Part shown: positions 24,230-43,944 of the stretch, piece by piece | How positions within the stretch are numbered: position 1 is the first letter of the stretch | How the letters are laid out: each line of letters opens with the position of its first letter | Assembly: GCA_014381985.1 (NCBI GenBank) | Contig: JACNKP010000022.1 | Coordinates: forward strand, 1 to 46,934 | Direction: 5' to 3' | DNA: 46,934 nucleotides | From: SAR92 clade bacterium | GTDB lineage: Bacteria > Pseudomonadota > Gammaproteobacteria > Pseudomonadales > Porticoccaceae | Translations under genes and position numbers: made by a program | The notes under the pieces: generated by a model | Database searches by the model: none | The model's input: only the letters and a program-made list of their open reading frames with translations | What the model was told of the DNA's origin: nothing

Positions 24230-25366
24230 ATGGAAGAGACAAAAGACATGGTGTTAAACACAGTAGAAGAGTTACTAGAAGATATCCGTCAAGGCAAGAT
24301 GGTTATTTTAATGGACGACGAAGACCGAGAGAACGAGGGTGACTTGGTTATGGCTGCACCGATGGTGCGCCCGCAAGACATTAACTTCATGGCTACCTTT
24401 GCCCGCGGACTGATTTGTCTGACCTTAGACGAGCAACGCTGCAAACAGCTTGATTTGGCGATGATGGTTAATCATGACAGCAACGCTTCGAGTCATGGAA
24501 CACCTTTTACGCTCTCTATTGAGGCGGCAGAGGGAGTGACTACAGGGATTTCTGCAGCTGATCGAGCACGAACGGTTCAGGCGGCTGTGGCGAGTAATGC
24601 CAGACCAAATGATATTGTTCAGCCGGGACATATTTTTCCTCTTAAAGCGCAGCCAGGGGGTGTGTTGAGTCGAGCTGGCCACACTGAAGCGGGTTGCGAT
24701 TTAGCTAGAATTGCAGGTTTTGAGCCAGCCGCCGTGATTGTAGAGATCATGAATGAAGATGGCACAATGGCTCGACGTGATGATCTTGAAAAGTTTTCTA
24801 AAAAGCACCAGCTTAAAATTGGCACTATTGCAGACCTGATTCATTATCGGTTGGTAACGGAGAAAACCACTCAGTGCATTAATGAGCGCACTGTAACCAC
24901 TCATTATGGTGAATTTATATTAAAGACCTATCTGGACAATGCTCGTAATGAAAAACATTTTGCGTTGGTCATGGGTGATGTGAGTACAGATGAACCAGCC
25001 CTAGTAAGAGTTCATATTAATCGTTCTGCAAGAGATATCTTGGCTCTGGAATCGGGAGGGAAATTCAAATCTTGGTCTTTTCATAGTGCTCTAGAGCGCG
25101 TTGCTAAGGAAGGCCGTGGTGCTGTGGTGTTGGTGTACCACTCTGAAACTGCAGAGGATGTCGACAACAATATCGAGATGATCGTTAACCCCGGTATTGG
25201 CGGCGCTCAGTCTGCAAGTGACGTCGTTTACCAGCAAGTAGGTACGGGGTCACAGATCTTGATGGATTTGGGCGTGCATAAAATGCGACTAATGAGTGCG
25301 CCATTTAAGTTTAGCGCAATCTCGGGCTTTGACCTTGAGGTTGTTGAATACGTTAATTGCGATTAA
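24230..25366 (+). CDS. ribBX: 3,4-dihydroxy-2-butanone-4-phosphate synthase fused to a degenerate GTP cyclohydrolase II-like domain (RibBX type)
   Basis: A 378-residue protein. The N-terminal domain (about 8-207) is a DHBP synthase with the metal/acid motif [11 protein letters not shown] (29-39) and the HTEAGCDL loop. The C-terminal domain (about 208-378) aligns with GTP cyclohydrolase II in layout, but where RibA has its zinc cysteines and the TGD, it reads [16 protein letters not shown], with no cysteine. That half cannot bind zinc as RibA does. This corresponds to the RibBX variant described in Proteobacteria. A complete ribA lies at 32601-33197. Start at ATG 24230 (TAAGG upstream); ATG 24248 is an alternative. 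Confidence 0.92.
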
Positions 25367-32499: not shown

Positions 32500-32600
32500 T
32501 ATAGGCCTGATTTAGCCAGTATTTCTGAAAATTCTGTATTAGCTAGGGGTTGGTTGTACAATGCCAACCTTATTGTTAACAAATATTGGAGTCGTTATCA

Positions 32601-33197
32601 GTGCTTCGTTACATCGAATCTTCTAAGTTGCCCACTCGTTGGGGAACCTTTGATATCCATGGGTTTGAAGATCCTTTCAAAGGCAAAGAGCATATCGCTA
32701 TTACCATGGGGGACTGCGGTACTGATGAGCCTTTGTTGCTTAGAATTCATTCCGAATGCCTTACCGGTGATGCCTTGGGCAGTTTGCGCTGTGATTGCGG
32801 CGAGCAGCTGCATGAGGCGATGAAACGTATTTCGGACGAGGGGCGTGGGGCTATCCTGTACCTTCGGCAAGAGGGACGAGGCATTGGTCTGGTAAACAAA
32901 ATTCGTGCTTATAATTTGCAGGACGAGGGAGCTGATACCGTTGAGGCAAATGAGCGCCTAGGGTTTGGTGCAGATATGCGTGATTACTCTATTTGCGCAC
33001 CCATGTTGGCGCATTTAGGGTCTCAAAAAGTCCAGTTAATGACCAATAATCCTCGTAAAATTAATGCCCTTATAGAATTGGGTATTGATGTTGTTGAGCG
33101 CAAACCTCTCCAGACTGATAGCAACCCCCATAATGTGCAGTACCTTTCTACTAAGGCTGGTAAATTAGGACATCTCTTTGAGGATCAAATCGAGTGA
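32601..33197 (+). CDS. ribA: GTP cyclohydrolase II
   Basis: A 198-residue protein catalysing the first step of riboflavin synthesis. The zinc cysteines C53, C64 and C66 are in [20 protein letters not shown], followed by [19 protein letters not shown]. coli RibA has the same spacing and length. The start is GTG 32601 with GGAG 9 nt upstream; TTG 32586 is an alternative. It complements the degenerate C-terminal half of RibBX. Its TGA overlaps the GTG of hisF by 4 bp. Confidence 0.94.
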
Positions 33198-42303: not shown

Positions 42304-43944
42304 TTGAAAACAGAATTTCTTGGCAAGACCCTATCGGGGCCATTCACGATTCCTTCTGGAATTGTTACCACTGCAACCTCGATTATTCAGGCTATGTTTG
42401 ATCATATGCCACAGATTGGCGTAATAACGACGAAAAGTGTTGGTCCTACACCACGCGCGGGTAATCGTGAACCTGTTTATAGTCAGTATGCGCCGGGCTG
42501 TTTCGTCAATGCCGTAGGCCTAACTAACCCAGGTGCTGAGGCCTCTGCTGTGGCAATGTCGACGTTACGTATTCCTGACGATCGGTTTTTGCTGGTGTCA
42601 ATCTTTGGCGGTAGTATCGAAGAGTTTGTAGAAGTGGCTAAGATTATGGCGCCTGTGGCCGATGGTCTAGAACTCAATCTCTCCTGCCCGCATGCAAAAG
42701 GTTATGGTATGGCGATGGGCCAGGATCCAGATATGGTTCGGGAAGTGACCGCTGCGGTCAAAGCTGTTGTTGATATCCCTGTGATTCCAAAATTAACGCC
42801 CAACACATCGAATACTAGTGAGATAGCACTCGCCGCAGTGGCTGGTGGGGCCGATGGTCTTTGCGCAATTAACACTGTAGGGCCTGGTTATACGTCTTCT
42901 CATGGTCAGCCTGTATTAAGTAACGGCGCAGGAGGGATGTCGGGTAAAGGTGTTCTACCTATCGCACTTAAATGTATTCGTGAAATTGCAGCGGTGACTG
43001 ATGTCCCTATTATTGGTTGTGGTGGTGTAAGTAGTGCCTCTGATGTACGAGAATTCATTGACGCTGGGTCTACTATTGTTGGGGTGGGATCTGCGCTTAC
43101 GGGCATGACTACCGATGATATTGGAAGTTATTTTAGTCAGCTTGAATCTGATATCTGCTTTGATAGTAATAAAGCTGAGGCACATATTCGCTACGATATT
43201 GATATGGACTTTCAGCCTGTTGTGCTGGTGGAAAACAAGCGTGTGTGTGAGGATATTTGTGTTCTGACCTTTGATCGAAAGATCAACATACAGGCTGGTG
43301 AATTTGTTTTTCTCTGGATACCCGGGGTAGGCGAAAAGCCTTTTTCAGCTCTTTCAGATGATCCTTTTCAATTAGCGGTTATTGATGTAGGTATCTTTAC
43401 TCACGAATTAATGGATTTAGCAGTTGGAACTGAAGTCTACGTGCGTGGCCCACACGGCATTCCAGTATTGCCACCTGAAGATGCCAAGATTATGGCTGTT
43501 GCGGGTGGAACCGGTCTAGCGGCCGTGTATCAACTGGCTAGAGATTTTGGTGACGCTGAAATATTTACGGGTGCTCGTACCGCAGAGCGCCTCTACTATC
43601 TTGACGAGTGTCAGAGAATTGCTACTGTACATGTGGCTACCGACGACGGTAGTGAGGGTTTTAAGGGGGTTGTCACGGAGCTGTTGCGCTCCCGTTTGGA
43701 GGAGATGACCCAGGCTGAGCTGGATACATTGGTGTTCTATAACTGTGGTCCTTCGCCTATGGTACATGCGGCTGCTGCAGTGCAGCGTGAGTTTTGCCGT
43801 GATGATCAGATTTTTAGTGCCATTGACTACTTAACAAAGTGTGGTGTGGGTATCTGTGGAGCCTGTGCAGCGCCCGATGGCCAGCGTATTTGTGTTGATG
43901 GCCCTTTTTTACAAGGCTCACCAGCAAGACCTGCTAGTCTTTAA
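42304..43944 (+). CDS. Fused dihydroorotate dehydrogenase B-like catalytic and PyrK-like electron-transfer protein
   Basis: A 546-residue single chain. Residues 1-~290 are a class 1B PyrD-like FMN barrel: TTKSVG (Lys near 44), FVNAVGLTNPG (67-77), Cys128 in LNLSCP as catalytic base, and GCGGVSS/VGVGSAL phosphate binding. Residues ~305-546 resemble PyrK: FAD/NAD ferredoxin-reductase fold with GGTGLAAVY (401-409) and FYNCGPSPM, then [2Fe-2S] cysteines 513, 518, 521 and 530. In Gram-positives these are separate PyrDB and PyrK subunits. Start is TTG 42304; nothing better exists before the in-frame stop. It likely oxidises dihydroorotate with NAD+; a related dihydropyrimidine substrate is possible. 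Confidence 0.85.
   Translation: MKTEFLGKTLSGPFTIPSGIVTTATSIIQAMFDHMPQIGVITTKSVGPTPRAGNREPVYSQYAPGCFVNAVGLTNPGAEASAVAMSTLRIPDDRFLLVSIFGGSIEEFVEVAKIMAPVADGLELNLSCPHAKGYGMAMGQDPDMVREVTAAVKAVVDIPVIPKLTPNTSNTSEIALAAVAGGADGLCAINTVGPGYTSSHGQPVLSNGAGGMSGKGVLPIALKCIREIAAVTDVPIIGCGGVSSASDVREFIDAGSTIVGVGSALTGMTTDDIGSYFSQLESDICFDSNKAEAHIRYDIDMDFQPVVLVENKRVCEDICVLTFDRKINIQAGEFVFLWIPGVGEKPFSALSDDPFQLAVIDVGIFTHELMDLAVGTEVYVRGPHGIPVLPPEDAKIMAVAGGTGLAAVYQLARDFGDAEIFTGARTAERLYYLDECQRIATVHVATDDGSEGFKGVVTELLRSRLEEMTQAELDTLVFYNCGPSPMVHAAAAVQREFCRDDQIFSAIDYLTKCGVGICGACAAPDGQRICVDGPFLQGSPARPASL

Follow-up and report, generated by a model that had tools for sequence, protein, structure and literature searches.

The window analysed here, i.e. 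the whole 46,934-nucleotide stretch of contig JACNKP010000022.1 from a SAR92 clade bacterium, contains a gene in which a dihydroorotate dehydrogenase (DHOD)-type barrel and a PyrK-like electron-transfer module are encoded in one frame (Table 1), flanked by genes for a phosphodiesterase-type protein and a class 3 lipase. Its start codon is TTG, while most of the homologues shown have ATG at the equivalent site. On the opposite strand, the frame inspected is interrupted by many stops. Elsewhere in the window there are two GTP cyclohydrolase II genes (24230-25366 and 32586-33197), one fused to DHBP synthase and one separate, the fused gene standing, as judged by eye, among riboflavin genes. A short frame of 162 residues at 35506-35994 matches the N-terminal asparaginase domain only.

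Table 1. Features of the PyrD-PyrK fusion gene (window coordinates)
Feature	Position	Strand	Residues and basis
PyrD-PyrK fusion gene	42304..43944	+	single uninterrupted frame of 546 residues; TTG start, stop at 43942-43944
FMN-type DHOD barrel	42304..43098	+	1-265; Pfam DHO_dh, HHalign to PyrD
NAVGLTNPG, DHOD-type loop	42508..42534	+	69-77; not kept in 4/4 PreA compared
Cys128 in LNLSCP	42685..42687	+	position of the class 1 catalytic base; alignment
Barrel end and short join between the halves	43099..43215	+	266-304; bounded by HHalign PyrD/PyrK matches and alignment
PyrK-like FAD/NAD reductase and [2Fe-2S] module	43216..43920	+	305-539; profile and structure-database matches
KPFS, position of the FAD motif	43336..43347	+	345-348; RPxS in 13 canonical PyrK printed
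GGTGL, nucleotide-binding motif	43504..43518	+	401-405; Pfam and alignment
[2Fe-2S] domain	43837..43917	+	C513, C518, C521, C530 (CX4CX2CX8C)

The original prediction, that a single frame joins a class 1B DHOD-like barrel to a PyrK-like module, agrees with both Pfam and HHalign. The Pfam families DHO_dh, NAD_binding_1 and DHODB_Fe-S_bind matched residues 1-265 (199 bits), 399-490 and 512-538, respectively. In profile-profile comparisons, residues 2-266 aligned to a set of eight canonical PyrD sequences with an E value of 4e-46 and residues 305-539 to a canonical PyrK set with an E value of 1.5e-24 (99.6%), both far beyond chance. The best solved-structure matches of the barrel were class 1B PyrD proteins (5ue9, 5ksw and 1ep1), and the C-terminal half matched the PyrK homologue 4ylf, the NfnI beta subunit 5jca and the PyrK chains 5ksw_B and 1ep1_B.

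When a single genome of each species was scanned with short exact peptide patterns, a method limited to close relatives, 224 related stretches emerged. The best 80 of these, at 72-98% identity, are titled as SAR92, Porticoccaceae, Halieaceae and related gammaproteobacteria, and include the cultured isolates HTCC2207, HTCC2148 and MOLA455 as well as Haliea and Halioglobus strains. Together with 43 of these best 80 loci, the window gene forms an alignment of 44 sequences, all nearly full-length single chains. Residues Lys44, Asn69, Asn125, Lys163 and Asn190, which we take to be the lysines and asparagines surrounding orotate, and Cys128, presumably the catalytic base, are invariant in 44/44 sequences and agree with the canonical class 1B PyrD rows; the loop formed by residues 69-77 is presumably the orotate-binding loop. 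The title of a reference in PMC8097209 concerns Lys-D48 of the Lactococcus lactis enzyme. The four cluster cysteines and their spacing are likewise invariant in all 44 fusions, so that both the cysteine in the LNLSCP motif and the four cysteines in the PyrK-like module held up as originally described.

The genome from which the window derives (2.5 Mb, 82 contigs, 98% complete) encodes pyrB, pyrC, pyrE and pyrF above cut-offs, and the fusion provides its only match to DHO_dh (PF01180) and, at its C-terminus, its only match to DHODB_Fe-S_bind (PF10418), a search that found PyrK in the controls Bacillus subtilis and L. lactis and none in Escherichia coli. No second DHOD, class 2 pyrD included, and no separate PyrK was found with these two families in this nearly complete, fragmented assembly, which answers the check for a class 2 gene proposed at the outset. 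A pathway in which the fusion is the sole step-4 candidate detected constitutes the strongest argument for its function. The fusion is thus likely to be the DHOD of the organism, a class 1B-like enzyme catalysing step 4 of UMP synthesis with the PyrD and PyrK subunits combined in one polypeptide, a reading to which, on sequence grounds, we assign a probability of about 0.8.

By analogy with L. lactis DHOD B, dihydroorotate would bind over the FMN in the barrel, Cys128 would take up a proton and a hydride would pass to FMN, from which electrons would travel via the [2Fe-2S] cluster to FAD in the C-terminal half and on to NAD+. The protein would be active, loaded with its cofactors and soluble, with NAD as the acceptor and with electrons passing either within the chain or between protomers. 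A single chain fixes the 1:1 stoichiometry of PyrD and PyrK and would aid cofactor assembly without an operon. Passages of PMC8097209 describe the FMN-[2Fe-2S]-FAD relay of L. lactis DHOD B and report that PyrK seems to need PyrDB to acquire its cluster and binds FAD more weakly in its absence, and that PyrDB is destabilized without PyrK; a single chain might secure this mutual stabilization where the genes do not form an operon.

NAD+ may not be the acceptor, since the FAD and nucleotide motifs are altered. Lys345, Pro346, Phe347 and Ser348 are invariant across the aligned fusions, while the 13 canonical PyrK sequences printed have RPxS, and a GGTGLAA motif replaces the GGVG-type motifs of canonical PyrK, which are followed by proline in several of them. 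The final cluster loop, CX8C, is the shortest among the PyrK compared, being CX15-16C in 15/15 gammaproteobacterial PyrK and CX11-15C in eight operon PyrK if the last cysteine printed is taken as the ligand, a count that is less sure where the loop holds an extra cysteine. These changes, together with the deep separate clade formed by the fusions, would fit a DHOD whose PyrK half has been retuned to a main cellular acceptor other than NAD+, such as NADP+, ferredoxin or flavodoxin, or oxygen; the Pfam NAD_binding_1 and PyrK profiles nevertheless still match and no residue indicative of a different acceptor was found, making this alternative unlikely.

An NAD-linked dihydropyrimidine dehydrogenase, in which a PreA-like barrel would be paired with a PyrK-like module in place of the PreT partner to reduce or oxidize uracil or thymine, appears still less probable. 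The barrel grouped with four PreA sequences in one tree and with one in another, the catalytic loop (SCPH...GQDP) is nearer to PreA than to the class 1B rows shown, and HHalign to a set of four PreA sequences gave an E value of 7e-29 over the barrel. The match to the larger PyrD set is, however, stronger; the fusion keeps Asn69 and Gly77 as in class 1B, whereas 4/4 PreA lack Asn69 and have Glu at position 77; the PreA-type cysteine tail is absent; and the genome, in spite of its pyrB, pyrC, pyrE and pyrF genes, would be left without an enzyme for step 4. Of the two functions originally envisaged, genome context and residues give good support to the DHOD with its internal electron path, whereas a new dihydropyrimidine oxidoreductase is disfavoured by that missing step and by the conserved NAVGLTNPG loop. 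A comparison of the window gene with seven relatives gave dN/dS ratios of 0.01-0.11 for all three parts (barrel, join and PyrK half) in every case with unsaturated dS, and the gene, join included, is under purifying selection. Mis-assembly does occur in the data (one contig end joins a tetratricopeptide-like frame to a piece of the fusion), but this selection across the join and the 44 single chains from independent genomes, named isolates included, rule out a missed stop as well as the frameshift or assembly artefact that the original prediction had named as its refutation.

Returning to the fusion as a DHOD, its distribution was followed through 390 genomes of the order. It is present, whole or in part, in 47 of them, in 44 near full length (six of these matches with one stop counted inside the matched stretch) and in three partial or interrupted (G037, G630 and G669). 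The best DHO_dh match in all 47 has the strength of the fusion (E values of 1e-49 to 1e-60; 3.8e-19 for the split copy of G669). Among the other 343 genomes, about 326, counted by hand and judged by score, have a DHO_dh match of class 2 strength (E ≤ 5.6e-63), and 17 have neither. In the family scan, which unlike that of the 390 genomes listed every match, the largest secondary DHO_dh match in a fusion genome, split-fusion pieces aside, was of 55 bits (G065), and no convincing case of a genome with both enzymes was found among the 390. Two candidates for such a genome were rejected: in G681 the piece of the fusion comes from the end of a chimeric contig, and in G080 the second match is another class 2-like PyrD. 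The G681 piece lies on contig C70 (3-1760, minus strand), where a frame that looks tetratricopeptide-like by eye runs into part of the fusion barrel, and the genome also has a class 2-strength match. The G630 copy (contig C7, 900-2541) is split over three frames, perhaps by sequencing error or decay.

Within the genus of the window, judged by score and frame length, fusion-type matches occur in 32/36 genomes (two of them split or cut), class 2 in two (G080 and G091, checked individually) and nothing in two. Five genera contain both states: this count includes g1 and, with class 2 judged by score, g4, g336, g343 and g293. Both states inside single genera mean that the fusion and class 2 PyrD replace one another among close relatives. 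The PF10418 domain was detected in 39/40 fusion genomes scanned, the exception being G508, in which the cluster domain of the fusion itself was not found; three of the 40 have a further match over the cut-off, namely G468 and G650 (frames of 285-305 residues) and, marginally, G010 (178 residues). Six class 2 genomes were scanned in the same way, and one showed weak matches below the cut-off. In G512 and G571 (family f191; 93% and 97% complete, respectively) there was no DHO_dh match, while congeners have the fusion or class 2; this may reflect missing sequence or pyrimidine auxotrophy.

Beyond the order, surveys of 369 class and 349 phylum genomes gave no other full-length match to the fusion; both samples were drawn evenly and hold few genomes of the order, and a distant fusion whose second half is weak could have escaped detection. 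The fusion protein did match 169/369 class genomes at E ≤ 1e-20, and the premise of the original prediction regarding class 2 use by gammaproteobacteria proved too broad. Most of the matches listed in class genomes are stand-alone, class 1B-like PyrD proteins of about 320 residues, and a separate scan found DHODB_Fe-S_bind in 177/321 class genomes. No PyrK was found in flanks of up to 1.5 kb at 40/40 stand-alone PyrD loci, six of which are limited on one side to 182-668 bases, and the same search found PyrK beside PyrD in 6/6 operon loci. Families of Gammaproteobacteria thus commonly carry class 1B-like genes, and it is the single chain that is unusual. Passages of PMC3056875 and PMC3224940 describe PyrD 1B as a heterotetramer of Archaea and Firmicutes, and PMC3224940 places PyrD 2 across Gram-negatives and Actinobacteria. 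A split that assigns class 2 to Gram-negatives is too simple, because class 1B-like pyrD is found in many families of Gammaproteobacteria and also in other classes of the phylum.

A single clade (100/99) unites the fusion barrels, separate from the gammaproteobacterial class 1B PyrD sampled; the fusion is not nested among these, and the trees do not support its descent from those genes. The clade stands on a long stem beside PreA (96/81) and not canonical class 1B, a grouping that the program marks as a possible long-branch effect, in a tree without archaeal rows. At 14/14 canonical loci (ten from the plasmids collection and four from unverified scaffolds of the phages collection) pyrK precedes pyrD and, because of this order, the fusion, with its PyrD half first, is unlikely to have arisen by simple read-through of a pyrK-pyrD operon. 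On the TIGR01037 and archaeal PyrD models the fusion scores 241 and 211 bits, three canonical PyrD 447/235, 383/240 and 366/228 bits, and PreA 201/141 bits; the PyrK half scores best on NF000796, while three canonical PyrK prefer other models. These profile scores hint at an archaeal-like affinity or origin, and the fusion has motifs that we take to be archaeal. It is conceivable, but rather doubtful, that it represents a fourth type of DHOD: a single-chain enzyme of its own deep lineage, with PyrD ahead of PyrK, that would stem not from bacterial pyrK-pyrD operons but perhaps from a pair of archaeal type. Its FAD/[2Fe-2S] module would be remodelled, its acceptor or cis/trans electron route might differ, and it would have been swapped with class 2 PyrD several times among marine Pseudomonadales.

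No conserved neighbour was found around the fusion, the commonest neighbouring family occurring in 31/81 loci, and no viral relative was confirmed in viral_contigs. In the phages collection 28 records match the fusion at less than 60% identity, seven of them with query coverage of 80% or more; four of these were fetched and proved to be not fusions but separate pyrK and pyrD genes, in different frames with pyrK first. At three plasmid loci (L196, L197 and L200) pyrK-pyrD lie beside hydrolase/amidase genes and a transporter, with an orotate phosphoribosyltransferase or dihydroorotase annotated, and these loci look like orotate catabolism cassettes.

Among the titles and abstract beginnings listed by full-text literature searches there was no paper on a PyrD-PyrK fusion; InterPro or AlphaFold DB may well list the architecture, and the finding is moderately surprising. 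Most of the sampled genomes of the order appear to link pyrimidine synthesis to the quinone pool by way of class 2 PyrD; in marine clades such as SAR92 and Halieaceae step 4 would be uncoupled from that pool and, should NAD+ be the acceptor, would produce NADH. The exchanges with class 2 within genera make the physiological consequences directly comparable, and a natural one-chain FMN-[2Fe-2S]-FAD relay would offer a convenient model of flavin-to-flavin electron transfer.

Among the known systems, PreA has a related FMN barrel whose catalytic loop likewise contains SCPH or SCPQ and GQ; it differs in lacking Asn69 and Gly77 and in carrying two CX2CX2CX3C cysteine sets, and the fusion reaches 129 of the 335 bits of NF006183. 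Class 1A enzymes are single-subunit and fumarate-linked (profile PRK02506), whereas the fusion has a PyrK half and scores 89 of 301 bits on NF002702. The quinone-linked class 2 PyrD, with which the fusion probably shares its reaction and is exchanged between close relatives, has Ser in the rows shown where the fusion has Cys128, lacks a PyrK module and shows 21-32% identity over local matches, and the fusion scores 62 of 200 bits on TIGR01036.

The closest likeness is to class 1B, represented by the L. lactis PyrDB/PyrK complex (1EP1-1EP3), with which the fusion shares both modules, the catalytic cysteine, the lysine and asparagines, the FAD/NAD module and the four-cysteine CX4CX2C...C site. 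The fusion is a single chain with PyrD first, whereas class 1B consists of two subunits in a heterotetramer, with pyrK ahead of pyrD at the canonical loci examined; its PyrK half has a CX8C end loop and KPFS for RPxS, and its barrel, at 31-41% identity to operon PyrD, falls in its own clade. Its scores lie below the curated PyrD and PyrK cut-offs (241 of 270 for TIGR01037, 240 of 269 for NF005574 and 168 of 224 for NF000796), of which those for PyrK are strict, since two of the three canonical PyrK scanned fail them and one passes a PyrK cut-off. The two-gene class 1B systems of Gammaproteobacteria and other classes of the phylum would be of the same enzyme type, with a stand-alone PyrD among which the fusion is not nested. 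The fusion is a real and conserved single chain and, judged by its residues and domains, appears to be a variant class 1B DHOD used in part of the Pseudomonadales instead of class 2 PyrD.
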